From a virus: DNA of 35,865 nucleotides. The stretch covers positions 1 to 35,865 of IMG/VR virus record IMGVR_UViG_3300024999_000248; one strand, written 5' to 3'. The notes beneath the pieces are model-generated. The model was not told where the DNA came from and did not search any database. It saw nothing but the letters and a program-made list of their open reading frames with translations. Positions within the stretch are counted from its first letter, which is position 1. Each line of letters opens with the position of its first letter. The translations under genes and the position numbers were made by a program. Positions 5,122 to 34,631 of this stretch are shown piece after piece.

Positions 5122-6317
5122 ACTGCTACACCTTCTTTACTTTCAATGATTTCCCGAATGATGCAATAATCCTTTAAATATGTATAAGATGTACTATTTT
5201 CAATTAGGGTTGACAGGTGTGAAGTGTAGAGTTCATTGATAGAGATATTAACTGAGGATTTGACAAGAAGGTCTACTAATTCAATTGTGGCATATAGTGT
5301 TTCTAGTTTGAGCGTTCCACGGAATAATCTAAATTCGACTGTATTGCTATTCTGCAAATTTACTGCCATATATCGTCCTGCTTGTTTTCCTTCTTCTAAT
5401 AATTCAATAGCAGTATTCTTCTCTGAATATCTCTTAGCCCATCGTGATAATTGACTCTCAGTTCTACGAGAGAATTTTACCATATCATTCCAATTATTAT
5501 TGACTAAGAATAGAAGTTTTGCAATGTTCTTTTCTTGCTCATCATAGTCAAGGCCGAAAGCTTTACGTGATACATGGATATGTAGTCCACAAGTGTCTGC
5601 ATCGTGTGATTGAAAGTCGTTATTTTTTGCAGTTTGAAGGATATCAGACCACGGAAAATTATTTAAGTGATAATCTAAGGAGCATGGATGTGTAACTATT
5701 TCTACACCTTCGTTTAAGCTGCCATCTTCTTTTAAGTAAAATATGTCCTCATCGTTGGAAAGGTCGTGAAGTTCTTCAGCATAGTCTGACATGTTGTTTC
5801 CTTTGTCTGTTTCAAGTTCTAATCCATATTGCACAAGTGAGTGACCATGGAAGATAGGTGATGGCTTAAATGAATAGTCGTGTATATGTTCACTTCCTCC
5901 ATGATTGTGGTTAGAATAGCAAGACTCACAATACGTTTCTCCTGTTTCCTCAGAATAACACATATAATCACTGTTTACCCATTCACCGCAATCAGAACAA
6001 ATGTAAAAGTTTTCTGAGCAGGAATCACAATAAGAAGTATTATTTGAATCAGTGTGTATGCTCTCAAAATATTCACCGCAATCATCACATTTAGTTAAAC
6101 GTCTATCGGCACAATCACTGCAACAATACTCTGTATAGTTTCTATCTGATGTGTAAGAGATTGTTTCATCGTTTGGAGTGTATTCTCCGCAGAACTCACA
6201 AGAGATAAAGAGTTCGCTTGTGCAGTCTTCGCAGTAACATTCATTGTCGATAGTGTTAGAGTCTTCTAATTCGATTTCGCAATCACAATTGCAGCAGGTA
6301 ACTAGTTCTTCGTTCAT
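5118..6317 (-). CDS. Amidoligase-type enzyme with N-terminal zinc knuckles (399 aa)
   Basis: The N-terminal 135 residues contain at least eight Cys-pair knuckles (CYCEDC, CEFC, CCSDC, CDDC, CDSC, CSDC, CESC and the start), probably four zinc sites. The rest matches the putative amidoligase family related to glutamine synthetase. Residues 164-171 are YGLELETD (metal-binding ExE), 196-201 KEDGSL, 206-211 EIVTHP, 241-251 DTCGLHIHVSR, and near 328 VEFRLFRGTL. The family is predicted to join an amine or ammonia to a carboxylate using ATP. It is known to co-occur with glutamine amidotransferases, and a class II one lies downstream here. The zinc part may bind a protein or nucleic-acid substrate (inference). 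The start at 6317 has AAGGA eight bases upstream and a TGCTATAAT -10 at 6365-6360. Its stop overlaps a 43-aa frame. Confidence 0.8.
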   Translation of the reverse strand: MNEELVTCCNCDCEIELEDSNTIDNECYCEDCTSELFISCEFCGEYTPNDETISYTSDRNYTEYCCSDCADRRLTKCDDCGEYFESIHTDSNNTSYCDSCSENFYICSDCGEWVNSDYMCYSEETGETYCESCYSNHNHGGSEHIHDYSFKPSPIFHGHSLVQYGLELETDKGNNMSDYAEELHDLSNDEDIFYLKEDGSLNEGVEIVTHPCSLDYHLNNFPWSDILQTAKNNDFQSHDADTCGLHIHVSRKAFGLDYDEQEKNIAKLLFLVNNNWNDMVKFSRRTESQLSRWAKRYSEKNTAIELLEEGKQAGRYMAVNLQNSNTVEFRLFRGTLKLETLYATIELVDLLVKSSVNISINELYTSHLSTLIENSTSYTYLKDYCIIREIIESKEGVAV

Positions 6318-6359
6318 ATGTGTATTCCTTCTTTCTTAAATATAATAGACTACACTAAT

Positions 6360-6390
6360 ATTATAGCATTTATATAGTAGGAAGTATATT
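6360..6390 (-). promoter_or_regulatory. Extended -10 promoter for the amidoligase gene
   Basis: On the minus strand TGC-TATAAT (-10 at 6365-6360) lies about 43 bases upstream of the ATG at 6317. The -35 region is poor (TATACT), so the extended -10 probably carries the activity. Confidence 0.5.
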
Positions 6391-6713
6391 TATTTATGTA
6401 TTTATAGCGTGTTTTTAGCTTGTATTTATTGTTTGTAGATATTTTATTTTATTATTGTATTATATTGTTTTGGATATGATATGATCGTATGATATAGAGT
6501 TATCTGTATTAGTACAGTATGTTAATTTATAGACCTGTTGTAGTGTAGCAAATTGTATGCCAATGTAAAATATGAGTAAGTTGGGATTATAAATGTAAAA
6601 ATAAAATTATGTGATTAGAGCGACAGAACGGGGCTTTTAAGACGTCTGGAGTTTAGAGGTATATGTAAGTATAGGGAATTTTATTTTAGGGTTATTACGA
6701 TATGTGGAATATT

Positions 6714-6767
6714 ATACCCTACGTGGGTATAGTAGATTTTGGATGGGAGGATACCCCTTGAGGGTAT
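6714..6767. repeat. Two operator-like inverted repeats ATACCC-N5-GGGTAT
   Basis: ATACCC-TACGT-GGGTAT (6714-6730) and ATACCC-CTTGA-GGGTAT (6751-6767) have identical 6-bp arms, identical 5-base spacers and the same following AGTA. They are 37 bp apart, about 3.5 helical turns. This looks like a pair of sites for a dimeric DNA-binding protein. Confidence 0.6.
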
Positions 6768-6842
6768 AGTAATATATAACAGTGTATTATTTTTATGTTG
6801 TGTGCTAATTTATTATAGTGTAGTGGAATGGTATGGATTTAT

Positions 6843-6999
6843 ATCATAGTGGTTTAGTTGGTATTAATGTATAGTGGAATGATAGGATATGAATACCAAG
6901 TGATATAATAGGTATTAAATCATAGTAGTTTAGTATAGATTAATGTTGAGTAAGATAGTATAGATTATAGTGCAGTTAAATAGTTGGTATTAATACCAA
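6843..6999. repeat. Imperfect direct repeats and a 16-bp perfect palindrome
   Basis: 6843-6869 and 6919-6945 agree at about 21 of 27 positions. GGTATTAA occurs at 6860, 6911 and 6986. The last copy is part of TTGGTATTAATACCAA (6984-6999), a perfect 16-bp palindrome. These look like binding sites in a control or origin region. Confidence 0.55.
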
Positions 7000-7168
7000 T
7001 TTAATTAGTAGGATATAAATTAATTTATATTATAGCATTTTAGTAGGATATAATTCCGACTGTTTTGGTAAGTTATATTAACTATGTGCATGTTGCATAT
7101 AGATGTATAGTGTTTGTAGTAATACTTCAAAGATTGCGCCTATGTTATAGCCCTCGATTTTTATACGT

Positions 7169-7216
7169 ATAAACGTATATAATCATAAACGTATATAATC
7201 ATAAACGTATATAATC
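7169..7216. repeat. Iteron-like array: three perfect 16-bp tandem repeats
   Basis: ATAAACGTATATAATC occurs three times head to tail without a mismatch. The array is flanked by TGCGCC (7135-7140) and GGCGCA (7226-7231), an inverted pair. It sits where the plus strand changes from G-rich to C-rich and where gene direction diverges. A putative replication initiator lies 2.2 kb to the right. Together these suggest an origin or partition site. Confidence 0.7.
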
Positions 7217-7334
7217 AGCATCATTGGCGCATTACGATTCATTCCATTTTATCCCGATCAAATCAATTCGACAAATCATTACCGAGTGCAGTCGATCATA
7301 AAAGCCAGGACATTATCCTATTATCATTCTCTTA

Positions 7335-7540
7335 TCATTTCTCACTCAAAAACACCCTTCTAACCTCTTCAAATTCATTCCGAGTATAAATATAAGGCCC
7401 AATATTCGTCCAATGTAACTCGTTCCCATTGTGTCACATTCGGGAAATAGCAGAAATCCTTTATTCATGCGGATTGTAGGGTTAGGCAGGTAATCGGCCC
7501 ATGTTGTTTTCGGTTTGTCATAAGTAAAACTGATAGACAA
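7335..7540 (-). pseudogene. Probable frameshifted gene remnant
   Basis: On the minus strand one frame (from 7540, TTG-led) reads TTWADYLPNPTIRMNKGFLL and then FPEC. Just downstream another frame reads HNGNELHWTNIGPYIYTRNE, continuing FEEVRRVFLSEK, with its stop at 7335. Joining the two after PEC by removing two bases gives one natural-looking protein segment. No ribosome site or promoter is visible and the upstream frame is closed by stops. Local base use differs from neighbouring noncoding DNA. I read it as a decayed C-terminal fragment of a gene that once crossed this region. The family is unknown, and chance cannot be excluded. Confidence 0.35.
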
Positions 7541-8348
7541 AACTGATTAATTATAACAATTACTTTTAGATAAACCCTGTAACCCTAGTGGTGGGCGTAC
7601 TTTTACAAATTCCAGTTATTTCCATTCGACAGGATTCGACACAGTACATCTATCCATACCCTCATGCCACTATCGAACACGACTCAATCACAAATTTTAT
7701 AAAATGTCAATAGTTATTTAAAATAAATTTTATAAAATTATAAATCATACTTCCATAAATTTGTCAATACTAAAATTACAAAAATCCAAAATAATTTTCA
7801 TCTCATAAAATTTCTATCCAAAATCCATCACAATTTCCCCTTCGTTCTCACATCGCAAAAACATAATCACCACAACAATTTCCAACCCAATTATTCCTAA
7901 AAACTAATTCACAAAACTTCTCAAAAGTCAAATAAATTTAACAAAATACATCATAAAATATATCCATTCTATCTAATAATCCCACAATAATTACCAATAA
8001 TAAAATGAACAATTTCCAAAATCTATTTCAATCCAATCGAACAAATTATAAAAACAATAATCACAATAAATGTATCTATAAAAATCAAAATATCCATCTA
8101 ATAAAACCTCCATAAAATCCTTATATAACAGCACTTATATCCATTATACAATATCTATTCCTATATACGGCGGGTACAGTTTACATTATAACTCGAATCA
8201 ATTATACCTCATATACGACCATCTAAAAATTGGTGAAAATATTTTTGACAGTCTCAATCCATATCAAATTAATCCATTCCCTAAAAATTTACCAAACAAC
8301 ACAAATCTAATAATCCCTCTATCCTTACTCTAACAACCATTACACCAA
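7541..8348. other. Gene-free, extremely G-poor and C/A-rich region
   Basis: About 800 bases with almost no G on the plus strand between 7680 and 8150, the mirror image of the G/T-rich DNA left of the iterons. No gene is seen. Short repeats include AAATTTTATAAAAT-like words near 7700-7740 and one TATAACAGC at 8124. A plus-strand transcript would be A/C-rich and nearly unstructured. A weak TTGACA at about 8250 has no good -10. Confidence 0.45.
7571..7590. repeat. 20-mer shared with 10761-10780
   Basis: TAAACCCTGTAACCCTAGTG here and TAAACCCTGTAACACTAGTG at 10761-10780 differ at one base. A partial copy, CTGTAACACTA, lies at 8400-8410. The copies flank the putative rep gene, in otherwise unrelated noncoding DNA. 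Confidence 0.6.
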
Positions 8349-8410
8349 TTCACTCGGACAAAGTGTATATAGTATAATACACTTCATCCGTACAAATCTC
8401 TGTAACACTA
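8349..8410 (+). promoter_or_regulatory. Promoter-operator region with 8-bp inverted repeat
   Basis: AAGTGTAT (8361-8368) and ATACACTT (8377-8384) form perfect arms around an 8-base spacer, and a TATAAT (8373-8378) lies within the repeat. A poor -35 (TTCACT) is 18 bases upstream. A GTACAAATC copy at 8390-8398 and CTGTAACACTA at 8400 follow, as at the next promoter. The arrangement suggests repressor control of leftmost plus-strand transcription. Confidence 0.5.
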
Positions 8411-8509
8411 CTCTAACAATACTTTCAAGGATTTAAGAAATAATTCCTCTGGTAAATTTTTATTATTGTGCAGTTTCTCATAATATTATTAATACTAAAA
8501 TAAAATTTG

Positions 8510-8565
8510 TTGACATAATTAATATATTGTGTTACAATATTCACAGGTACAAATCTGTACAAATC
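8510..8565 (+). promoter_or_regulatory. Strong promoter with paired GTACAAATC operator
   Basis: TTGACA (8510-8515), 17 bases, TACAAT (8533-8538). At the expected start and just downstream, GTACAAATC occurs twice (8547-8555, 8557-8565), ten bp apart, and creates a GTACA-N4-TGTAC inverted repeat. A third copy follows the promoter at 8373. It drives the 107-aa gene. Confidence 0.75.
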
Positions 8566-8592
8566 AGTATCTAGAAAGGAGTAAAAAAACAT

Positions 8593-19334: not shown

Positions 19335-21182
19335 ATGAACTTTGAAAATATACAAATGGTTGTAGTTAGAAAAAGAAGTGATGGAAGTAAGATAAATATT
19401 AGTCAAATTGATGAGGAAAACAGATATGAGAAATATGAATGTATTGTGTGTGGTTCAGATGTAATTCCTGTAGCTGTAAAAGGTAAAATTATTGGTGGAG
19501 ACAATGCAAAAGTAACTCCTCATTTTAAACATTTGAATGCTGATAAATGCGGAACAGAGTCATTTACCCATTTTTGGATGAAAACAGAGTTTATTAAAAT
19601 TGGTGATTGTTTTAAAGTAATCACAGATAAGGAAAATGAATACATTTGTAATCAAATATTCTTTGAAAAAACTATAGTAATAAATGGTAGAAGATATACC
19701 CCAGATGCAACCGTTTTAACATCTTGTGGCAACACAATTCATTTTGAGTATAATTATAGTAATAAGAAAAAAGTTAAGGATTATATTGATATTTGGAAAG
19801 AATTAAATAACATTATTATTGAAGCAGATATGAATTCTATATTGAGTGTATTTTCAGATTCAGTTCCAACTTTTAAAGCATTATACTATGAAGGCAAATG
19901 TTTTAATTTAAATGATGAAGATAATTTTTATTATAAAACTATAGGAGAATATAAATTAACAAAACGTGATGAAAATTATTTAGAATCAAGAAAAGTTGAA
20001 ATGGAAAATTTAGATTATCTATGGGAAGAGATAAGAAAGATAAAATATGAAAATAAAGATTATAGTGAGATTGGAAATTTTATTAGATCAATAACTTCTG
20101 ACGAAGGTAGAAAAGTGGCTATTGCTATTTTATCAAGAGCAAGATGTGGCAATAGTATTTTAGGAAATTACGTGACATTTATAAAAACTAATATTGATAA
20201 GCACTTTAAACTTTTGAACTTAAAGTATAACGGGTATCTGATTAAGTATGAAACTGAAGTACCTAGACTTATCTATGATAGAATTTTCAATGGAGTAACT
20301 ATTAAGTTTTATATTCCAGACAGTGGTTATAATTCAGACGTTCCAGAAATTCACCAAACTTATAATTATAACTTTAAAGATGAAATACTGAGTGGCACAT
20401 TTAAAAGTAGAATAGATACGACTGTCGAAAAGTTGTTGTCCACTCATAATTTATTACTAAAAGTTTTAGATGTATTTCAAAAGAACGATAAGATAGTCAA
20501 TTACAAATTAAATTACAAAGAAAATACTGATTACATTAATGCAATATATTTTGTAGATTATAGAAATAAATGTTTTGTTTTAAGCAAAGGTTATTATAGT
20601 AAAGAAACATTTCAAGAGCATCATACAAATGTATTTAATAATTTAATTGATGATAATACTTTGTTTATTGGCTTACATTACTTATCTTATAATTTTTATA
20701 TTCAAGAGACAAAAGATTCTTATGATTTTAATTTTGTTAATTCTACAGATAAGTTTATTCAATATAGATTTGATAAATTTATTAAGCAAAAGACTTTAAA
20801 CTTATCATATTATTTTGTAGACAAATCGTTACCTAGATATAACTTTGTAAAAGTTACTTCTGAATTAAATGATTTACTAGATAAAATTGAAGAGAATATA
20901 AAAGACATTAAACGTAATTTTTCTAACACTGAATATTCTACAAAAATATATAAAAACGGAGAAAGTATTAAAATCTCTGATTGCGATATAGACAAAAAAC
21001 TTACTCAATTACTATATCCAATCACTTACTTATCAAATAAATGTGATTATGAAGAATTGAATATACAACTTAATAAAGATTTTACAAAAGGTCTATTGGG
21101 TGATTTTAGATTATGGTTAATAAAAGATTTTATTAATGAATTGAATCGTATAGGGGTAGTTGAAATTAATAATATTAAATAA
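19335..21182 (+). CDS. CoiA-like protein with predicted nuclease domain (615 aa)
   Basis: The first 85 residues match the CoiA-family head: a zinc pair CIVC, then KVTPHFKH and ESFTHFWMKTEF (CxxC ... HFxH ... ExxxH). A PD-(D/E)XK-like core follows at about 125-160 (RRYTPDATVL, IHFEYNYSNKKKVKDYIDIW, ending IIIEAD), with possible Asp/Glu/Lys active residues. Competence protein CoiA acts in recombination during DNA uptake; phage and mobile-element relatives are poorly known. Residues 200-615 are AT-rich helical sequence with no known motif. It lies directly before the RNA polymerase gene, 13 bases from its start, which suggests shared expression. The ATG has GGAGG 13 bases upstream. Confidence 0.6.
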   Translation: MNFENIQMVVVRKRSDGSKINISQIDEENRYEKYECIVCGSDVIPVAVKGKIIGGDNAKVTPHFKHLNADKCGTESFTHFWMKTEFIKIGDCFKVITDKENEYICNQIFFEKTIVINGRRYTPDATVLTSCGNTIHFEYNYSNKKKVKDYIDIWKELNNIIIEADMNSILSVFSDSVPTFKALYYEGKCFNLNDEDNFYYKTIGEYKLTKRDENYLESRKVEMENLDYLWEEIRKIKYENKDYSEIGNFIRSITSDEGRKVAIAILSRARCGNSILGNYVTFIKTNIDKHFKLLNLKYNGYLIKYETEVPRLIYDRIFNGVTIKFYIPDSGYNSDVPEIHQTYNYNFKDEILSGTFKSRIDTTVEKLLSTHNLLLKVLDVFQKNDKIVNYKLNYKENTDYINAIYFVDYRNKCFVLSKGYYSKETFQEHHTNVFNNLIDDNTLFIGLHYLSYNFYIQETKDSYDFNFVNSTDKFIQYRFDKFIKQKTLNLSYYFVDKSLPRYNFVKVTSELNDLLDKIEENIKDIKRNFSNTEYSTKIYKNGESIKISDCDIDKKLTQLLYPITYLSNKCDYEELNIQLNKDFTKGLLGDFRLWLIKDFINELNRIGVVEINNIK

Positions 21183-21195
21183 GGAGGTTTTATCA

Positions 21196-24021
21196 TTGAT
21201 TAATAGACAATTTTATACATATAAATTTAAATCTTCTAGGCTGAAAGCATATAATTATAACATTGATATTACATTTGATAAAGCCAAGGAGGTAAAGGAG
21301 GTAATTGCTTTAGCAGATAATCAAATATTAAGAAGTATAAGAGACATAAGAAAGAGAATAATCAAGCATGAAAAACTAGAGAGATTATTTAAAGAGAGAA
21401 ATGTTAGAAAGAAAAGAAACAATAGAAAAAACTCAAAAGAGAATTCAGATAGAATTTTCCAAATACAGAATAAAATAAATAGAACTATGTTTATTCCAGA
21501 TTATATTACAATAGTCATAGAACATCCTTCTCATTATAAGAAACTATTTAAAGATGGATTATTTATCAATGGTAAGTTATATAGGAGGGCCAGTTGCTCT
21601 GCTGGTCAAGCAAGAGTTTCTACTGTTGTTTTTTGTTGTGTAGATATATTAGATGAGTTAAAAGAAAGATTAAATAATGGTAGAGATTTAAATAAAGAAA
21701 ATGCTCCGAGCAAATTTAATTCATATTTTGGACTCGCTGGATCTTCTACATATTTAGTTAGTGAGCCAAAATTTATTGTTGTAAAGGATTTTATTAATAC
21801 GGATAAATTTAAAACTAATTATGTAATAGAAAAGGAGTGGAATATTGATGATGATATAGAAATTCGTGAAATTGAAATGGAAATGAATAGAACGGACGGA
21901 ATGGGCATAATTAGTCCTAAGCAAGCATTAGCATGGTCTCAAGAATTAGGGTTAGATTGGGTTCCATCTCAGTGGTGTGTGAGACAGAATTTTTTGAAAG
22001 GGATGCTCTGCGTATTTGATATACATACCTTTTGCCAAGAAGTCAACGATGGAAACTATATAGTTAATACTATATATGAAGATAGTGATGGAAACTATAT
22101 AAAAGCAGACCTGAGAGATTACGAAGTAATAATAACTGAATCACAATTTAAATTGTGGGATAGTTTCCCAGATATAAATACATATATTAATAATTGTCAT
22201 AAGAATAAGTTGTTTTGGGGTATATCACAATATACTCCAAAACACGCAAAAGATATTCTTAAACTCAATTATCAATTTATCCAAACATTGAATTTAAATC
22301 AAGAAAGTATTGAGAAATTAGCACAACAATTTGTTGATTGGATATCAGGAGTTTCTTACGATAATGTCTATTATATGCTATTATTTTTACTTGGTGTAAA
22401 TAATAATGAGTATAGTATTAAGGAATATCTAAAAAGCAGTGATAATTATTGGATTAAAAGTCTAATCATTAATCATGACATGAAAAATGATAAATTTATT
22501 CTTACAAAAATAAAAGAATTAATCAAGATTAGGATTAAGAACGGGTGCATGGGGGATATATTTACAAATGGAAACTTTCAAGTATTGGTATATGATCCTT
22601 ACGGATTTATGCAACATGTTTGTGGATTAGAGGTTACTGGTTTACTTAAAAAAGGAGAATTTTATTCTAATTATTGGAATGAACGAAATGTAAAACAAGT
22701 AAATGGAATGAGATCACCTTTAACATATAGAAGTGAGCATGTAATTTTAGATTTAAAAAAAGATAAAGAAACAGAAAAATGGTACAAACATTGTAAGTTA
22801 GGTATAATTTTGAATTATCATGGTCATGAAGTGGTAAATTTTGGTGGGGCAGATGTAGATTATGATATTTTGGCCACCACTTCAAGTCAAGAAATGATCA
22901 ATGGGGTTTTTAAAGATGAGTTACCTGTAGTATATTCCCCTCCAAAACCTAAAAAAACACTACTTACGGATAATGACTTGTATCTTGCTGATACTTTTTC
23001 ATTTGGATCAATAATTGGGTCAATTACTAATAAAAGTAGTAATGGATATGCCTTGTTGCCAAGTATAGAAAAGAAATACGGCATAGAAAGTGAAGAATAT
23101 AAATTAATATTATCTAGATTGAAGCAATGTTGTAAGGCACAATCGGCTCAAATTGATAAAGCTAAGATAGGTAGAGATGTTAAGGGAATACCTAAACTAT
23201 GGATACATAAACAAGAAATAGAAAAGGACGAAGCAGGAAATATTATAGATTCTGAAGAAATTATAAAGCAAAAAGAGTTATATAATAATACTTTATTAAG
23301 TAAATATCCATATTTCTTTAAATATCTATATAAGAATACACATCGTAGATATAGAAAATATTGTGATGAGAATGAAATTACTTGTCATCAAAAATTCAAA
23401 ATGTCTTTCAGTAAGTTGAAAGAATTGAAAAGAGTATCTATTGATCAAAAACAGTATATAAGTAATTTTTATAATTATATGCCATTAACTTATAGTGATA
23501 GTCCTATGAATTTATTGTGCAAATACATTGAAGGTATTAATTTTGAAATAAATTCTAAAATAAAGGTAATAAGTTTAGATGATATAACAACCAACTATAA
23601 AAATGAGGATCATCCTTATTCCGATGAGCAATATAATACAATTATAGAAGTTTTAAAGGAGCATATTGTTGGAGTTAAATATGATAAATTAAATCAAGTA
23701 GATGACGTAAATAATGACAATGATTACAGCGAAGATGAAATTAGAGAATTTAAAGTAGATAATGATACTTTAGAAAATAAAATCAATAATGTATGTAGTG
23801 ACGTATATTTAGTTACTAATGTTTTGTTAGATTATTTTTATGTAGAAAAACCAAGTTCAAACAAAGATATTTTATGGGGAACATATGGTAAATATATATA
23901 TCAAAATGTTAAAGAGAAATGTTCTGGTAAAATATTATTCCCCTTCCCCAAAAAAGATGGAGATATTAAATACTTGGAAATCAATTATTCATTAAAGGAG
24001 ATTGATGTCAATGGACTATAA
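21196..24021 (+). CDS. Single-chain two-barrel RNA polymerase, YonO/QDE-1-like (941 aa)
   Basis: Predicted RNA polymerase of the double-psi beta-barrel superfamily. Residues 550-557 read GGADVDYD, matching the metal-binding motif DxDGD of cellular RNA-dependent RNA polymerases and NADFDGD of bacterial beta-prime. Asp553, Asp555 and Asp557 would bind the catalytic metal. Upstream NGMRSPLTYRSEH (Arg506) matches the R-x-P segment that precedes this site. Downstream QSAQIDKAKIG (654-658) matches the AxDxxKxG helix of that family. Length is close to YonO of SPbeta (about 900 aa), a DNA-dependent enzyme. TTG at 21196 is chosen because AAGGAGG lies eight bases upstream. It probably transcribes phage genes independently of the host. 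The DYD in place of DGD is notable. Confidence 0.75.
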   Translation: MINRQFYTYKFKSSRLKAYNYNIDITFDKAKEVKEVIALADNQILRSIRDIRKRIIKHEKLERLFKERNVRKKRNNRKNSKENSDRIFQIQNKINRTMFIPDYITIVIEHPSHYKKLFKDGLFINGKLYRRASCSAGQARVSTVVFCCVDILDELKERLNNGRDLNKENAPSKFNSYFGLAGSSTYLVSEPKFIVVKDFINTDKFKTNYVIEKEWNIDDDIEIREIEMEMNRTDGMGIISPKQALAWSQELGLDWVPSQWCVRQNFLKGMLCVFDIHTFCQEVNDGNYIVNTIYEDSDGNYIKADLRDYEVIITESQFKLWDSFPDINTYINNCHKNKLFWGISQYTPKHAKDILKLNYQFIQTLNLNQESIEKLAQQFVDWISGVSYDNVYYMLLFLLGVNNNEYSIKEYLKSSDNYWIKSLIINHDMKNDKFILTKIKELIKIRIKNGCMGDIFTNGNFQVLVYDPYGFMQHVCGLEVTGLLKKGEFYSNYWNERNVKQVNGMRSPLTYRSEHVILDLKKDKETEKWYKHCKLGIILNYHGHEVVNFGGADVDYDILATTSSQEMINGVFKDELPVVYSPPKPKKTLLTDNDLYLADTFSFGSIIGSITNKSSNGYALLPSIEKKYGIESEEYKLILSRLKQCCKAQSAQIDKAKIGRDVKGIPKLWIHKQEIEKDEAGNIIDSEEIIKQKELYNNTLLSKYPYFFKYLYKNTHRRYRKYCDENEITCHQKFKMSFSKLKELKRVSIDQKQYISNFYNYMPLTYSDSPMNLLCKYIEGINFEINSKIKVISLDDITTNYKNEDHPYSDEQYNTIIEVLKEHIVGVKYDKLNQVDDVNNDNDYSEDEIREFKVDNDTLENKINNVCSDVYLVTNVLLDYFYVEKPSSNKDILWGTYGKYIYQNVKEKCSGKILFPFPKKDGDIKYLEINYSLKEIDVNGL

Positions 24022-25500: not shown

Positions 25501-25908
25501 TACTAACTAAATCATACACAATTGGCTATGTTAGTAGAAAACTTTGCTTAAAATTATCTATGAGTTTTGCCAATAGGACTTGAAGATAATTTAGCATGTA
25601 TTATCGAAGTTTCGCTGAAAAATGCATTAAATGGTTATAGATAATACAATTAGATTGACATCTTAGTTTCTGCATAATTATTGCTTTAGTCGAATATGAG
25701 TAGTCTTTGGTCGGATGAAAGTAATGAGACAAATATGCTGTTAGCACATGAAAAAATTGCCAAAACCTACGACTTACAGTAGTGAGGACTTGTGCTTGAC
25801 CACAGCATATTCTGAACTAAACAGAGGGTAAAAGAGTAGGTTTTAAATTTATTACTTACTCTTCCCTACTAAAATTGTTATTAAACTGTATGGTCGATTG
25901 CAGTTTAA
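25501..25908 (+). ncRNA. Candidate structured RNA with pseudoknot
   Basis: No gene is seen in 25480-25968. Perfect stems are TACTAAC/GTTAGTA (25501, 25530), AAATTATCT/AGATAATTT (25551, 25584), TGTATTATC/GATAATACA (25597, 25640), ATATGCTGT/ACAGCATAT (25733, 25802), AAAACCTAC/GTAGGTTTT (25762, 25836) and TTAAACTG/CAGTTTAA (25881, 25901). The fourth and fifth cross, forming an H-type pseudoknot. AAGAGTA/TACTCTT (25832, 25857) competes with the pseudoknot arm, so two exclusive folds are possible. Nothing known is matched. It may be a trans-acting phage RNA, a large ornate RNA, or a cis element for the 148-aa gene. Confidence 0.6.
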
Positions 25909-25968
25909 ATATAAAGTAACAAAAACAAAATAAAACTCCAAACTAAAAGGAGCATCAATAACAAAACA

Positions 25969-26415
25969 TTGGAAAAAATCACAAAACAAGAAATGTTATA
26001 CCTAATTTCTAAAAACATAATCCATCAAAAACATGGAAATTATGGAGAATCCCTAGTCGTAATAGGAAAATTTAGTAGTGGTAGGCGTAAACAACGCTAT
26101 TGTACACCACCTGTATATAATCTACTCTTAAAACTAAAGAAAAAAGATAGATTAGAGCAATATTTTAATCTAAAAAATACTATATTCTCTCAAAACTACA
26201 GATTAGAAGGTATTGATAAAATCTATTATATCTTTGATTATGCAGTATTTGAAGATGAATCAAGAACTAAATTAAAATATTTAATAGAGTTTTACAATGG
26301 TGATTATTATGACAAATTTAAAGTTGGTTCTTGTAACAATAATGGAATTAAGCTACTGAGAATCAAGTATGATGAATTTGTTAATATTGAAGAAGTTGTA
26401 AATTGCGTCTTATGA
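25969..26415 (+). CDS. Hypothetical protein (148 aa)
   Basis: A basic, soluble alpha/beta protein (SLVVIGKFSSGRRKQRYCTP near the N-terminus, then LEGIDKIYYIFDYAVFEDES). The start is TTG at 25969; the only strong ribosome site, AAAAGGAG, lies about 16 bases upstream, which is long, so expression may be low or regulated by the folded leader at 25501-25908. No family is recognised. The next gene, PIN-PhoH, follows after 39 bases. Confidence 0.65.
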   Translation: MEKITKQEMLYLISKNIIHQKHGNYGESLVVIGKFSSGRRKQRYCTPPVYNLLLKLKKKDRLEQYFNLKNTIFSQNYRLEGIDKIYYIFDYAVFEDESRTKLKYLIEFYNGDYYDKFKVGSCNNNGIKLLRIKYDEFVNIEEVVNCVL

Positions 26416-27711: not shown

Positions 27712-28011
27712 TAAATAAAGTTATAAAATAAACTCCTTCAGACTGTTTTTCTGTGTGGAGTTTGGAATAGTATGTTTCACTATTTCTTCTTTAAATATTA
27801 ATTCAAGGAGGGAAGTCATTATATTAATGGATTTTGGTTAGGTAGAAAAGTCAAATTATCGAAGATAGGTCTTTGTGCTTAATAAAACAGTACAATGCAC
27901 CAATAATAATCACATAATCTGACACTCACAAGGTTTTAGATTAGAATAAAATATTTAATAATCAATAGCAGAAATAAATAAAAAATTTAAAATAAAAGGG
28001 GATTAAAATAA
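27712..28011 (+). other. Intergenic region with hairpins between PhoH and HU
   Basis: No gene is seen. Stems: AAACTCC/GGAGTTT (27730, 27757) with an inner CAGA/TCTG, and AATAGT/ACTATT (27766, 27779). A stranded AAGGAGGGA ribosome-like site at 27807 is followed only by a few codons. The first stem has a run of T in its loop but not after it. The hairpins may be a processed leader or a partial RNA. The HU gene's own ribosome site is AAAAGGGG just before 28012. Confidence 0.4.
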
Positions 28012-28287
28012 ATGAACAAGCAAGACGTAATTAACAACATGCAAACACTGGTAGAAGGTAGCACAAAGAAAGACTGTGAAAAATATCTAACTGCATTTCT
28101 TCAAACATTAGAAACTGCTGTTAAAAATAGGGATGAAGTTAAATTGTCTGGATATTTTGGAATGGAAGTCGTAAATCGTGCTCAAAGATCGGGAGTTAAC
28201 CCCAAAACGAAGGAAAAGATTATAATTCCTGCAAAGACTGCAATTAAAACAACTATTTATAAAGTTCTTAAAGAATTAGCACTGTAA
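28012..28287 (+). CDS. HU-family nucleoid DNA-binding protein (91 aa)
   Basis: Full-length match to the HU/IHF fold: helix pair MNKQDVINNMQTLVEGSTKK and CEKYLTAFLQTLETAV, the LSGYFGMEVVNRAQRSGVNP turn (F/G and the conserved RxxRxGxNPxTGE-like segment) and the beta arms (KIIIPAKTAIK). It lacks the second Gly of the usual NPxTGE, reading NPKTKEKI. It bends and packages DNA, and phage HU homologues often help replication or origin melting. ATG with a weak AAAAGGGG site. A nested hairpin follows at 28304-28366. Confidence 0.9.
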   Translation: MNKQDVINNMQTLVEGSTKKDCEKYLTAFLQTLETAVKNRDEVKLSGYFGMEVVNRAQRSGVNPKTKEKIIIPAKTAIKTTIYKVLKELAL

Positions 28288-28303: not shown

Positions 28304-28366
28304 TTGTATCGCACAGTAAGTCCTTATATTTGATAGGTATCTTCAAATATAAGGCAAAGCGATACA
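28304..28366 (+). ncRNA. Nested hairpin RNA downstream of HU
   Basis: TGTATCGC (28305-28312) pairs perfectly with GCGATACA (28359-28366). Inside, CCTTATATTTGA (28322-28333) pairs perfectly with TCAAATATAAGG (28343-28354), with asymmetric internal loops of 9 and 4 bases and a 9-base apical loop. Twenty base pairs in about 62 nt is strong. No T-run follows, so it is not a classical terminator; a processed sRNA or mRNA-stabilising end is possible. Confidence 0.55.
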
Positions 28367-28453
28367 TTACAATATTTGAGCGTAAGGCAAATTCTTTAAT
28401 ACAAATGATATACTCATAATATTAAATAAAATAAAAAGGTGGAATAAAAATAT

Positions 28454-28663
28454 ATGTCAATAATCAACAATAAAAATTTCTGTCCAATTTGTGTAAAACG
28501 TGGAACCTGTATGTGGGAAGATAAATTATCTAAACTAGAAGGAACAAAGAACAATTATATTGGTCTTGATGTTACTGTAAATGGATGTGAAGCGTTTTTA
28601 TTGGATGAAAATGTTGAGATTGAGGATTTAACTGGTAAAGAAGAAACTGAAGACGAAGAATAG
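28454..28663 (+). CDS. Small Cys-containing acidic protein (69 aa)
   Basis: Reads NFCPICVKRGTCMWEDKLSK, then NNYIGLDVTVNGCEAFLLDE and an acidic tail (EDLTGKEETEDEE). The CPIC...C...C arrangement suggests a small metal site. The ATG at 28454 has AAGGTGGAA upstream, which fits. No family is recognised. Small acidic phage proteins of this type may bind host proteins, but nothing in the sequence shows it. Confidence 0.7.
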   Translation: MSIINNKNFCPICVKRGTCMWEDKLSKLEGTKNNYIGLDVTVNGCEAFLLDENVEIEDLTGKEETEDEE

Positions 28664-28692
28664 TAGAATAAACATGAATGGAGTTGATATTT

Positions 28693-29490
28693 ATGTTTTA
28701 TGAAGATGAAAGAGGTAAATATCTTGAATCTAGTAGGGGCTAATCGTTCATTCAGCTAGGTCTATGAAGACGCTAGTGTTTTATAATCAATACTTCCCTC
28801 TATAAATTGTTGTGGTGATGATTTTTTGGAAATTGCATAAGCCAAGACAACAACAATAAAAACTTATTTTAGGGTTTGATAAAATTAGGTCAACGCTAGT
28901 GCAATTGCGAACCTTCCCTAAAATCATGTGCATAAGTTAGTAAGACCTTGAAAGACAGGCATTGCTCTGACAAAGAGTATGAGGTTTATAGACGCACAAA
29001 TTATTAGATTTCCCCTCATCACTCATTGTTTGTTCTCTATGGCGTTAATCACAGTTTATTTAAACTTAGTGATAGAGACAAATGGCATACTGCAATGAGA
29101 TTGATGATATATGAGTATGCCAAATTACAAATAAGGTGAGTTTATAGGGGTAGACTCACCTTTATATTAAAACCATTGTTAAGTCAATGGTCGGTATGAT
29201 ATTGCCGAATAGTCCTCCATAGTGCATGGTTTGTCAGATTCCTTTAATATAACTGCATGGTAAAGCATGTAAAAACTTAGAGTGCAAGGTTTAGAGGAAA
29301 AGCCTTCCAAAATATCATTTAGGGCAATGTACTTGATTATTAAGACTTAATAAGATGTAATAATACACATCTTAAAGACATGAGAACAAAGACTGAGTTA
29401 GACTACGGTTAATAACTCAGTCTCTCATGGATACAAACTAAATAAGTTTGCCGGATAACTTAAATAAAACGGCATTAATAATTTAAAAAC
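28693..29490 (+). ncRNA. Large ornate structured RNA candidate beside tRNA genes
   Basis: About 800 bases with no gene longer than 16 codons but dense perfect stems: ATTGTTGT/ACAACAAT (28806, 28850), ATTTTAGGG/CCCTAAAAT (28866, 28916), GGCATACT/AGTATGCC (29084, 29114), GGTGAGTTTA/TAGACTCACC (29135, 29151), CCATTG/CAATGG (29173, 29185), TAAGATGT/ACATCTTA (29351, 29367), and CATGAG + AGACTGAGTTA paired with TAACTCAGTCT + CTCATG (29379-29429). TGTGC near 28927 and GCACA near 28994 enclose a branch. Base use is GC-richer and less skewed than coding DNA. Size, folding and position next to phage tRNAs match the GOLLD/ROOL class; I cannot assign which. The start is approximate, and a 16-codon frame at 28693 with GGAG may be coincidental. 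Confidence 0.65.
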
Positions 29491-29512
29491 TGCATTTTAA
29501 TTGAATAAATAT

Positions 29513-29597
29513 GGAGAGTAGGCGAGTGGTTAGCAAACTGTCTTGAAAACAGTCGTGGGTTTTGCCCTGTGGAGTTCGATTCTCCAACTCTCTTCCA
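29513..29597 (+). tRNA. tRNA-Ser (anticodon TGA)
   Basis: Acceptor arms GGAGAGT and ACTCTCT (one G-U) end in T-CCA encoded. Anticodon stem ACTGT/ACAGT frames CTTGAAA (anticodon TGA, reads UCA). A long variable arm and T arm TGGAG-TTCGATT-CTCCA fit Ser. Position 8 is A instead of the usual T, and the discriminator is T where bacterial tRNA-Ser usually has G. Confidence 0.85.
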
Positions 29598-29615
29598 AAA
29601 ATAATTAACATATAA

Positions 29616-29701
29616 GGATAGTTGTCAGAGTGGTCTATTGAGATTGTTTGCTAAACAATTGAACTTCGGTTCCGTGTGTTCGAATCACACACTATCCTCC
29701 A
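29616..29701 (+). tRNA. tRNA-Ser (anticodon GCT)
   Basis: Acceptor GGATAGT/ACTATCC, anticodon loop TTGCTAA (GCT, reads AGC/AGU) on an ATTGT/ACAAT stem, a long variable arm (GAACTTCGGTTC) and T arm GTGTG-TTCGAAT-CACAC. Encoded CCA follows a T discriminator. Confidence 0.9.
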
Positions 29702-29718
29702 ATTAAATCTTATCATAT

Positions 29719-29792
29719 GCCGAAATAGTTTAATGGTAAAACAACTGATTTGTAACCAGTTAATCACAGTTCGATTCTGTGTTTTGGCTCCA
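29719..29792 (+). tRNA. tRNA-Thr (anticodon TGT)
   Basis: Acceptor GCCGAAA/TTTTGGC (one G-U), D arm AGTTTAATGGTAAAAC, anticodon loop TTTGTAA (TGT, reads ACA), T arm CACAG-TTCGATT-CTGTG and encoded CCA. The last anticodon-stem pair is an A-C mismatch. Confidence 0.9.
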
Positions 29793-29828
29793 TAATTAAT
29801 ATCCATATCCTTTAAGGAGATGATTGCA

Positions 29829-29960
29829 ATGGAAAAATTAAATATTGAAGAGCAAATATGTTGCCCTAACTGTGGTAAAATGCGATATTGGGTTAAATAT
29901 TTTGTAAATAAAGATATAATGTTTTGTATGGATTGCGGGTATTATCAGGATATAAAATAG
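29829..29960 (+). CDS. Small zinc-ribbon protein (43 aa)
   Basis: MEKLNIEEQICCPNCGKMRY, then WVKYFVNKDIMFCMDCGYYQ: a four-Cys zinc ribbon (CPNCGK and CMDCGY) in 43 residues. The ATG has AAGGAG nine bases upstream, directly after the tRNA cluster. Such minimal zinc ribbons are common in phages of Firmicutes and may bind nucleic acid or host factors. Confidence 0.7.
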   Translation: MEKLNIEEQICCPNCGKMRYWVKYFVNKDIMFCMDCGYYQDIK

Positions 29961-31187: not shown

Positions 31188-32798
31188 ATGAAATTAAATC
31201 TACAATACATATCAAATATTATAGGAGAATCTTATAAAACATGGAAACCAAGTGACATTATAATTATGGATTCTCAGACAGGTACAGGTAAAAATCATTT
31301 TATTGAGAATGTATTAATACCTTGGATCGGTAATAAGAAAATGTTATTCATAAGCAATAGAACAAATCTCAAACGCGAAGTAAAATCAAGATTATTATTA
31401 CAATATGGATTAAAAGTTCCTGAAGCATTGGAAGAATTGGATAAAGTAACAACGATTAAGAACATAACAATTTCATCATATCATTCATTACAACACTCTG
31501 CAAAAGAGGAATTATATAAAGGTAAAAAGTTCGATTTGTCTTATTATGATTATCTCGTAATGGACGAGTGTCATTTCATTATGGCAGATGGAGGATTCAA
31601 TAATTTAAACAGATTATCTTTTGATAAATTAGTTAAAACACAATATAGGAATATAATTAAAATATTTATGTCTGGTACTATGGATGAAATTAAACCACCA
31701 ATTATTAAATGTGTAGAAAAAGGATTAGGGGTAATCCCTAAGATTCATGAATATAGTACCGGTAAAGATTATTCATATGTTAATGTGAAATACTTTAAAC
31801 ACAATAAATATACTGAAACAATCACTAACATGATACTTAATGATACGACTGATAATAAATGGTTAATATTTATTTCTGACATTGAAGATGGAGAAAAGAT
31901 TCTTAAAGTATTAGGTAATGATAAATGTTCAATAATTAAATCTGGAACAAAAGATAATAAGGAATTAAATTCTATTATTAATGATTCATGTTTTACTAAA
32001 AAAGTACTAATTACCACAAAATCACTCGATAACGGTATTAATATTAAAGATGATCTTCTTACTAATATTGTAATTATGGCATGGGATAAAACAACTTTTT
32101 GTCAATCAATAGGAAGAAAAAGAATTGATATTACAAATGCACAAGAAATAAATCTTTATATTTCAATGAGATATTCTAAATCATTTCTTGGATTATCTAG
32201 AAGTTATGATATTAAACAAAAAGGAATTGATTTATTGTTTCTGGAAGGGGATAATAAAAATCAATTTAATAAGAAGTATGATAACAATTTCAAAGAATTA
32301 GTATTATTAGGTGATGTTGTGTATAAGAGTCATTATAATAATGAATTTATGTATAATTTAATTGGAGGAGCAAGATTATTTAAAGACAAAGTATTTGCAA
32401 ATGAAATGATAGAAAAATTTAAATATGATAAATATGCTTTCATTAAAGAACAATTATTATGGATTGGAAAAGAAGATACTTTTGATGAATGTAATATAAT
32501 TGGAGATATAATTTTGGATACAGAAATTGAGACTTTGGAGAGTTATTTAGAAAGTATTGAAGGCAAAAAATTATTCTCGGATGACCAACAAATAATATCA
32601 GATTTAGTTGTTAAAGAATTAATTACAATAGATACAAAAACTGATTATAGGACAAAAAAGATAAAACCAACTACATTAGAAACAATATTAAGAGATCAAT
32701 TAAGTTTACCATATGCAGTATCTAAATCTAAAAAAGAGTCTATTGGGGATATGAGAGGTAAACGATATATTATAATTACAAAAGTAATAGAAGAGTAA
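31188..32798 (+). CDS. SF2 DEAD-like helicase (536 aa)
   Basis: ATP-dependent helicase of superfamily 2. Walker A is DSQTGTGKN (28-36), motif Ia LFISNRTN (53-60), Walker B VMDECHF (124-130), motif III MSGT (161-164), motif V-like KSLDNGINI (278-286), and motif VI FCQSIGRKR (304-312). It is divergent, with a helical C-terminal third. The layout resembles the 575-aa minus-strand protein (DEE and QGIKRINRG), so the two may be distant paralogues. The ATG at 31188 has AAGGATGG upstream. It follows a strong terminator, so it probably depends on a promoter in 31150-31185 that I cannot identify. Confidence 0.8.
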   Translation: MKLNLQYISNIIGESYKTWKPSDIIIMDSQTGTGKNHFIENVLIPWIGNKKMLFISNRTNLKREVKSRLLLQYGLKVPEALEELDKVTTIKNITISSYHSLQHSAKEELYKGKKFDLSYYDYLVMDECHFIMADGGFNNLNRLSFDKLVKTQYRNIIKIFMSGTMDEIKPPIIKCVEKGLGVIPKIHEYSTGKDYSYVNVKYFKHNKYTETITNMILNDTTDNKWLIFISDIEDGEKILKVLGNDKCSIIKSGTKDNKELNSIINDSCFTKKVLITTKSLDNGINIKDDLLTNIVIMAWDKTTFCQSIGRKRIDITNAQEINLYISMRYSKSFLGLSRSYDIKQKGIDLLFLEGDNKNQFNKKYDNNFKELVLLGDVVYKSHYNNEFMYNLIGGARLFKDKVFANEMIEKFKYDKYAFIKEQLLWIGKEDTFDECNIIGDIILDTEIETLESYLESIEGKKLFSDDQQIISDLVVKELITIDTKTDYRTKKIKPTTLETILRDQLSLPYAVSKSKKESIGDMRGKRYIIITKVIEE

Positions 32799-32813
32799 TA
32801 AATAATATATTTA

Positions 32814-33201
32814 TTGTTCCAGTTTTGCTATAATATCTATTTTAATATAGATTAATTAGTAGAATTGGAACAAATTATAATTATGTGTATCCTTTTTAAT
32901 ATCATAAATAGAGCGAGTATCCCTTTATCAAATTTCATAAATAGAGTAAATCACAGTTTATGATAATAATATAACAATAATAAATCATATTCATTTAAGT
33001 AATTTTGAAGCTCTGCTGAAAAATTGCGTAATGATGGCCTCCCGCAAAGGGACTAATATCAAAATGATAATCTAGCAAATTAATAATACAGTGATTAAGG
33101 AACGCTTGCATAATTTCTAGCTATCGCGTCGAAATTCTGGTTATATTCTTTTAATTAATTTTTTGTTTGTATGGTGATAAGTCCTTAGTCGATGAAGGAC
33201 T
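32814..33201 (+). ncRNA. Structured intergenic region upstream of the phosphoesterase
   Basis: No gene is seen in 32799-33233. TTGTTCCA (32814-32821) pairs with TGGAACAA (32866-32873), with an inner ATCTAT/ATAGAT stem. TCATAAATAGAG occurs at 32902 and 32935 within an imperfect 33-base tandem repeat (GTATCC...). AATTTC/GAAATT flank 33112-33138, and AGTCCTT/AAGGACT (33180, 33195) is a hairpin near the ribosome site of the phosphoesterase. GAAG, then GCTGAAAAAT at about 33006, recurs at about 25606. It may be a regulatory leader or a phage RNA. Confidence 0.45.
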
Positions 33202-33233: not shown

Positions 33234-34631
33234 TTGTCAAAATCAAAAGATGAACTTTATATTATTGGTGTAGATTTTAAAAACAATAGAGATAAATATA
33301 AGAAAATACTTAATACTAAAAATCCTTCTTGGAATGATTTAAATGAGTCTCAGGGATTTCAGTTTAAATCTGGAGAACATTATCGTCAGTTTATCAAGAA
33401 AAGACAGGATCGCGATGGGACTTTAAAGAAGTTGGGTGTTAATAAGGAGATTATTAATAATATTGTTCTGGGTGCGTATTTTCCAGAAGAAGATAATATT
33501 ACGAAATCTATTGAAAGAGCAAGACTAAAAGATAAAGAAACATTACCTAATTATAAAGAATCTGTAGAAATTAAGCAAGATAATTCTCAAGTTTCTGATA
33601 AAGTTATTCCATTATCTGATGAAGAATTAAAAGATGTAAATTTTATTCTTAAATCACATAATTATGATCCTGAAGCATGGACTTTGATAAGTGCTAAACA
33701 TAGTATTTGGAATGTAAATACTAAGGTAGATGGAGTGAAGAAATTATTTAGTTCAAAGGTGAGTGTAAAGCCCTATGTTAAATCTTTTGATACCAATTGG
33801 ATTAAATCTGCTTTAGAAGACTTAGATTTAGACAGTCCAGTAATAGAGCAAAAACCTTATCATATAAAAGGTAAAACTTTAGAAATTAATTTAGCAGATG
33901 TACATATTGATAAACTTTGCTGTATTGATGAAACTAGAAATGAATATTCGACAGAAATTGGTATTCAAAGATTATGGCAAGTAATTAATGATATTATTGA
34001 AAAGGTAAAACATTATAATATCAAGAAAATAATATTCCCATTTGGTCAAGATTTCGGAAATATCGACAATATTTTTAATTCCACAACAAAAAATACGCCA
34101 CAAGACACAGACGTAAAATATGATGTAATGTATAAATTACTACTCAAAAATATAATTCAAATTATACATAAATTATCTGATATTGCTCCAGTTTTAGTAA
34201 TATATGTTGGAGGAAATCATGATAAAGTAACATCGTTTACAATGACTGAAGCAATGTATTGGTATTTCTTAAATAATGATAATGTAGAAGTTGATTCTGT
34301 ATTTAATAATCGTAAATATATATTGATAGGAAAAAATCTTTTGGGGTTAGCTCACGGTGCTGATGAGCGAAAAAACATAGTTTATTGTATGCAAAATGAT
34401 GTTCCTGAATTATGGGGAAAAGCAAAATATAGAGAATTTCATTTATCACATTTTCATAAAGAGAAAATGACAGATGAGCAGAATGGAATTATCTTTAGAT
34501 GGATTAGTGCAATTTGTGGTACTGATGCGTGGACTTATAATAGCGGATATGTTGGTGCTCAAAAGAAAGCACAGTCATTTATATGGGATGATGATAAAGG
34601 ATTGGAAATGATTATTAATAGTTATGTTTAG
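33234..34631 (+). CDS. Calcineurin-like phosphoesterase, SbcD-like (465 aa)
   Basis: Predicted metallophosphoesterase. The catalytic domain starts about residue 215 with LADVHIDKL (D-x-H), then FPFGQDFGNIDN (GxD), YVGGNHDK (GNHD) and LAHGADE, and near the end HLSHFHKEK (GHxH-like). The first 210 residues are helical and basic, probably DNA-binding. Relatives in Firmicutes phages are annotated as DNA repair exonuclease or as recombination-related phosphoesterases. The start is TTG with GAGG eight bases upstream. The nearby SF2 helicase suggests joint work on DNA ends or repair intermediates. Nuclease activity is inferred. Confidence 0.8.
   Translation: MSKSKDELYIIGVDFKNNRDKYKKILNTKNPSWNDLNESQGFQFKSGEHYRQFIKKRQDRDGTLKKLGVNKEIINNIVLGAYFPEEDNITKSIERARLKDKETLPNYKESVEIKQDNSQVSDKVIPLSDEELKDVNFILKSHNYDPEAWTLISAKHSIWNVNTKVDGVKKLFSSKVSVKPYVKSFDTNWIKSALEDLDLDSPVIEQKPYHIKGKTLEINLADVHIDKLCCIDETRNEYSTEIGIQRLWQVINDIIEKVKHYNIKKIIFPFGQDFGNIDNIFNSTTKNTPQDTDVKYDVMYKLLLKNIIQIIHKLSDIAPVLVIYVGGNHDKVTSFTMTEAMYWYFLNNDNVEVDSVFNNRKYILIGKNLLGLAHGADERKNIVYCMQNDVPELWGKAKYREFHLSHFHKEKMTDEQNGIIFRWISAICGTDAWTYNSGYVGAQKKAQSFIWDDDKGLEMIINSYV

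Follow-up and report, generated by a model that had tools for sequence, protein, structure and literature searches.

A stretch of about 800 nucleotides between an HU-like gene and three tRNA genes in a phage genome appears to be a chain of separable structured RNA modules, recombined differently among distantly related phages. Sequence comparison supports the modularity, and compensatory base changes are seen in three of the modules, A, B and D, none of which matches an Rfam family. We refer to the whole DNA that was analysed, 35,865 nucleotides of a viral sequence, as the window.

RESULTS

A highly structured stretch upstream of phage tRNA genes

Positions 28693 to 29490 had been singled out as a gene-free, stem-rich stretch of about 800 bases upstream of three tRNA genes, and its structure proved to be as described. 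We counted 17 maximal perfect stems of 7 bp or longer with a loop of up to about 60, where dinucleotide shuffles have 5.1 ± 2.0; 4 reach 9 bp or more, where shuffles have 0.25, and the longest spans 11 bp (29390-29400/29413-29423). Folding gives -217 kcal/mol for the plus strand (z = -7.4), a value as good as which was reached by 0 of 20 shuffles, and a z of -4.9 for the minus strand. In a scan of the whole window, 200-nt tiles of 29001-29500 rank among the most structured on the plus strand; three of them have z-scores of -4.5 to -5.0, and about 4% of all window tiles reach -3. Other structured plus-strand tiles are intergenic, at 25701-26000 and 32701-33000 (z of -3.6 to -4.7, no Rfam match). 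The three tRNA genes lie directly downstream on the plus strand: tRNA-Ser(tga) at 29513-29597, tRNA-Ser(gct) at 29616-29701 and tRNA-Thr(tgt) at 29719-29792. ARAGORN detected all three, and the Rfam tRNA model the last two.

The claim that the stretch is gene free stood for ORFs of at least 60 amino acids, none of which was found between 28663 and 29513, but not for the very start, where a 16-codon ORF is located (MFYEDERGKYLESSRG plus stop, 28693-28743, plus strand). Its ATG is the exact first base of the stretch, and it may encode a leader peptide. The equivalent in relative L004, MFYEDERGKSLESSRG plus stop, differs in 6 codons, 5 of them synonymously; judging from these codons, the peptide seems to be maintained in this one relative. 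A coding reading of the modules themselves was rejected: the longest plus-strand ORFs inside them have 37-39 amino acids, and their alignments contain 1-, 2- and 4-nt indels. No promoter or processing site stands out in the array region.

The stretch is a mosaic of modules

We retrieved the loci of relatives through the neighbouring HU-like protein and a methylase. In a first alignment of these loci, the stretch aligned piecewise, with different pieces common to different phages. The module names are our own, and the boundaries are approximate. The order in the window is Z0-A-B-C-D-F-tRNAs, all on the plus strand. Z0 (28689-28788), in what we call the 5' slot, contains the 16-codon ORF and a CTAG../..CTAG hairpin; it is 86% identical in L004 and partially matched in L014. 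Module A (28794-29000), of about 205 nt, has a predicted pseudoknot and covaries. Module B (29008-29167), of about 160 nt, has predicted pseudoknots and is represented by 14 distinct sequences. Module C (29168-29331), with the stem ACCATTG/CAATGGT, is specific to the window, with no match in any other retrieved contig compared. Module D (about 29332-29436) consists of two hairpins with a conserved GACT..GTTAA loop and has 5 distinct sequences. Module F (29437-29512) is directly 5' of the first tRNA and is 76-88% identical in L005, L010, L011, L014, L096 and L125. Further upstream on the same strand are U1 (28306-28385), a structured element in the gap between the HU gene and a 69-aa gene (81-94% in L098, L123, L011 and L103; tile z of -4.06), and U0 (27856-27957), which is non-coding and upstream of HU (84-90% in L098, L123 and L119). 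In the L119 counterpart of U1, the hairpin arms differ and the AGTCCTTAT motif is identical.

A survey in which 15 module sequences were scored over the retrieved loci revealed a collinear order: HU, U1, the 69-aa gene, the 5' slot, A, B or G, D, E, K, F, and then tRNAs or the next gene. The 5' slot is occupied by Z0, H, I, J or skipping-rope RNA. Module A stands without B in L006, L108 and L110, module B without A in L121, L123, L125, L126 and L015, and L119 and L014 have neither. None of the 15 modules is universal to the loci surveyed. Since the modules occur in different combinations and none is present in all relatives, the single RNA of about 800 bases envisaged in the original prediction is not supported.

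Modules A, B and D carry compensatory changes

A motif scan of IMG/VR detected module A in 20 other contigs, giving 12 distinct sequences with that of the window included, and module B in 20 contigs; the contigs from the two scans include some of 146-230 kb. A refined module A pattern returned the same 20 contigs and no further sequence type, and matches of the first-motif pattern in L097, L106 and L112 were discarded as chance. Module A is present in one copy per record, on the same strand as the flanking genes. When the window region and the cassette regions of two relatives were compared with named phage records, no match exceeded chance. By blastn against plasmids, we found a remote module A in pSC2, a 510-kb replicon of Paenibacillus polymyxa (74.8% identity, E = 1e-7), ending about 130 nt 5' of a tRNA-Leu. 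The only plasmid matches were pSC2 and a P. polymyxa replicon of identical length. Elsewhere in pSC2 (L127, 7107-7980) is a second gene-free stretch rich in inverted repeats, with a tRNA-Ser at its end. The window itself has a 24-nt, 92% match to module A on the minus strand at 7858-7881, possibly by chance, within a region of about 2.2 kb (6317-8580) with few ORFs and odd composition.

Module A is predicted to form a hairpin, P1 (ATTGTTGT/ACAACAAT), a long arm, P2a/P2b (AACTT.ATTTTAGGG/CCCTAAAAT..AAGTT), capped by P3 (AGGT..CGC/GCG..ACCT), and a helix, P4 (TGTGC/GCACA). The 5' strand of P4 falls inside P2a, which makes P4 a pseudoknot. Over 13 sequences, 94.2% of cells are paired, compared with 34.7-48.1% when the partners are slid. 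Both sides changed in 5 pairs (13 cells); shuffles gave 1.9 and 3.7, and 0 of 500 reached the observed values. When pSC2 was aligned by hand, the helices were retained with different sequences, adding changes in P1 (3), P2b (2) and P3a (1). P4 is wholly replaced there with pairing kept, from TGTGC/GCACA to the 7-bp TCTCACC/GGTGAGA.

In module B, predicted helix 1 pairs CATCACTCATTG with CAATGAGATTGATG, another pairs TTTG.TCTCTAT with ATAGAGACAAA, and a helix of TGGCATACT with AGTATGCCA crosses helix 1 to give a pseudoknot. At the 3' end is a hairpin with the stem AAGGTGAGT/ACTCACCTT and a constant loop, TATAGGGG, which is predicted to be able to pair with a constant 5' CCCCT. This stem is compensated as GGTGAGT/ACTCACC, GGAGAAT/ATTCTCC and GGAAACTG/CGGTTTCC over the unchanged loop. 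Among 13 sequences, with 98.6% paired, the both-side changes (13 cells) fall mainly in three base pairs of the 3' hairpin. Most B helices show little variation and are supported by conservation. The crossing helices do not covary in the aligned set but are conserved, and the predicted B pseudoknots contribute little covariation themselves. A divergent, shortened B copy in L096, absent from the B model, was recovered at E = 1e-12, a rough value like all those from models built in this analysis. Visual inspection of its TGGCATACT helix shows two compensatory changes, giving GAGCATACT/AGTATGCTC.

The upper stem of module D has both-side changes in 7 of its 10 pairs with 100% of cells paired among 5 distinct sequences, while its base stem and GACT..GTTAA loop are constant. 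The covariation alignments are modest in size, at 13, 13 and 5 sequences for A, B and D, and the shuffle control keeps shared ancestry in. Covariation of the stems across related phages had been proposed as a check and is seen in all three modules; on these alignments, the reading of A, B and D as real covarying RNA holds. The plus strand is favoured as the RNA strand because of G-U pairs on it, such as GGTGAGT/ATTCACC in module B.

The modules match no described RNA family

We searched 28600-29850 against Rfam 15, both at the gathering score and at E ≤ 10, and obtained only tRNA and noise. The region had been put forward as a GOLLD or ROOL candidate; neither covariance model matched at either threshold, and we rejected membership in both families. 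What is supported of the original prediction is a structured, non-coding phage RNA next to tRNA genes, covarying in related phages and belonging to no described family. GOLLD resembles the window in phage origin, tRNA neighbours (29513-29792) and total length, but it has a universally conserved 3' region (PMC12286853) next to a variable 5' part, whereas the array has separable modules, no covariance-model match and no module common to all members of the locus. ROOL shares the phage origin, the tRNA neighbours and an elaborate structure, but it is one fold, and the window is a modular mosaic without a match to its model.

Two known families do occur at this locus in other phages. Skipping-rope RNA (RF02924), a small pseudoknotted phage RNA, fills the 5' slot in L099, L126, L010 and L108; its covariance model matches only in these relatives and not in the window, and A, B and D differ from it in sequence and structure. 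DUF3800-VIII RNA (RF03075) is found just 5' of yonK in the syntenic gap of SPbeta and BUCT082, with no match in the window. In L006, an int-alpA RNA (RF02996, 8475-8542) lies downstream of the array, shortly 5' of a large gene. By these comparisons, A, B and D are new RNA families of a known kind, that of structured phage RNAs near tRNAs.

The array occupies an SPbeta-type yonN-yonK locus

The genes around the array, all on the plus strand, are those of an SPbeta-type yonN-yonK locus: a YonO-like polymerase and an HU gene upstream, an exonuclease downstream and a gene-free RNA region between. The YonO-like single-chain RNA polymerase (21160-24021) is 49% identical to that of BUCT082 and 25% to SPBc2 YonO. 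The HU-like DNA-binding protein, in the yonN position (28012-28287), matches Pfam PF00216 at E = 2e-19 and is 34% identical to SPBc2 YonN. It is followed, in the gap before the array, by a 69-aa cysteine-containing protein (28454-28663) with relatives in L003, L006, L010 and L011. The YonJ-like exonuclease (33234-34631) matches PHROG 704 at E = 1e-60 and SPBc2 YonJ weakly (E = 4e-4).

SPbeta has a yonN-yonK gap of 1.68 kb with no genes (L129, 4279-5961), placed like the array after the HU gene and ahead of the exonuclease gene. Immediately downstream of yonN it has a skipping-rope-like RNA, which with 29.6 bits (E = 2e-4) falls short of the cut-off of 36.7, and ahead of yonK a DUF3800-VIII RNA that, at 47.5 bits, exceeds its cut-off. 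No A or B module was detectable in SPbeta, and ARAGORN found no tRNA genes in the homologous region of BUCT082. A published YonO start site of the SPbeta late operon precedes an "unannotated non-coding RNA" (Forrest et al., PMC5467207), so a region syntenic to the array is reported to be transcribed. None of the literature searched mentions both yonN and yonK.

The RNA does not follow the polymerase

We then compared RNA and polymerase identities between phages. Contig G007 has a YonO only 28% identical to that of the window and a module A that is 96% identical; in G011 the values are 29% for YonO and 95% for module B, and in G002 they are 91% for YonO and 91% for A plus B. The gaps of SPbeta and BUCT082 (L129, 4279-5961; L128, 7243-8961) are 94.9% identical over 1516 nt, while the proteins are 25% (YonO), 41% (YonK), 24% (YonJ) and 78% (HU) identical, and the yonO, yonK and yonJ genes have no DNA similarity. 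RNA identity of 95-97% where the polymerases are 25-29% identical indicates that the cassettes pass from phage to phage and are not adapted to the polymerase. The metagenome accessions of the close relatives span a narrow range, probably a single site or project judging by their numbers, and the high RNA identity could therefore partly reflect recent ancestry. In Psychrobacillus phage Perkons, the annotated polymerase, taken as YonO-like from its place and size, is next to HU, and only 100 bp precede the next gene. This near absence of a gap, together with the mismatch between RNA and protein identity, points to RNA cassettes that are optional and mobile. We found no YonO match in the A- or B-containing contigs G001, G003, G009, G012 and pSC2, some of which are short fragments, and a tie to YonO transcription is therefore not necessarily universal.

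DISCUSSION

Sequence evidence shows RNA structure on the plus strand, through covariation and G-U pairs, as well as modularity, synteny and exchange. We infer from it co-transcription, processing and a host target. With a probability of about 55%, we favour the reading that Z0, A, B, C, D and F are separate structured RNAs that, together with the tRNAs, occupy the locus between HU and the late genes, are cut apart, act in trans and are exchanged. The modules and the tRNAs would probably be transcribed jointly from the plus strand, forming the beginning of a long transcript at the onset of the late programme, and this transcript would probably be cut into individual stable RNAs in the manner of tRNA precursors. 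The RNAs would then act in trans, probably on a host component common to many phages, and the phages probably swap them as cassettes. Their persistence over very different phage polymerases is what argues for a host partner.

The modules could instead be a structured 5' leader of the late transcript with a cis effect on the phage polymerase or on genes downstream; possible roles would be antitermination, as in put-like RNAs, or shielding of the 5' end. A leader would fit the location of the array, which follows HU on the coding strand and precedes the late genes, the fixed order of the modules, and the YonO start site ahead of the SPbeta non-coding RNA. We nevertheless find it rather unlikely, since the RNA does not track YonO, the downstream gene varies among phages, the pSC2 record with module A lacks a YonO match, and Perkons, with only 100 bp 5' of its next gene, appears to dispense with a leader altogether. 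We give a lower chance still to a single large, ornate RNA like GOLLD or ROOL, in which the modules would be domains of a molecule of 700-850 nt that may form multimers. Its size, phage origin and tRNA neighbours are suggestive, the A-B order is conserved in many members, and, read from the sequence, a 5' segment of A (CCTCTATAAA) could pair with a loop of B (TTTATAGGGG). Yet the helices of A and of B close within each module, either module is also found alone, Rfam gave no match, and there is nothing like the universal 3' region of GOLLD.

The inverted repeats could also be a DNA site for recombination, packaging or replication, with the RNA incidental. Such a site would suit a recombination-prone mosaic, and SPbeta pac sites have been mapped near yonR-yonP (PMC8270828). 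The reading is made very improbable by G-U compensations specific to one strand, by loops that stay constant while their stems change, and by the location alongside tRNAs and Rfam RNA families.

A broader picture can be proposed, tentatively and at less than even odds: pseudoknotted RNA cassettes may form a library in SPbeta-like phages that recombines and serves as a non-coding accessory island, expressed at late onset and traded to target or evade host factors. Protein accessory islands would be the analogue of such RNA cassettes traded between lineages against host factors. With the same reserve, this library would include A, B and D as three new families, and the SPbeta gap would be its laboratory-accessible example. 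In the literature searched, the mosaic array and the link to the SPbeta late-operon RNA are new; a 2017 motif paper may describe similar tandem arrangements.

With this array, the orphan families skipping-rope and DUF3800-VIII and the three new ones become parts of one exchangeable locus, tied to the late-operon start of SPbeta. The mismatch between RNA and polymerase identity directs the search for a partner to the host and not the phage polymerase. SPbeta is a prophage of the standard laboratory strain of B. subtilis, and the function of ornate phage RNAs, an old question, would therefore be testable by deletion in this strain.
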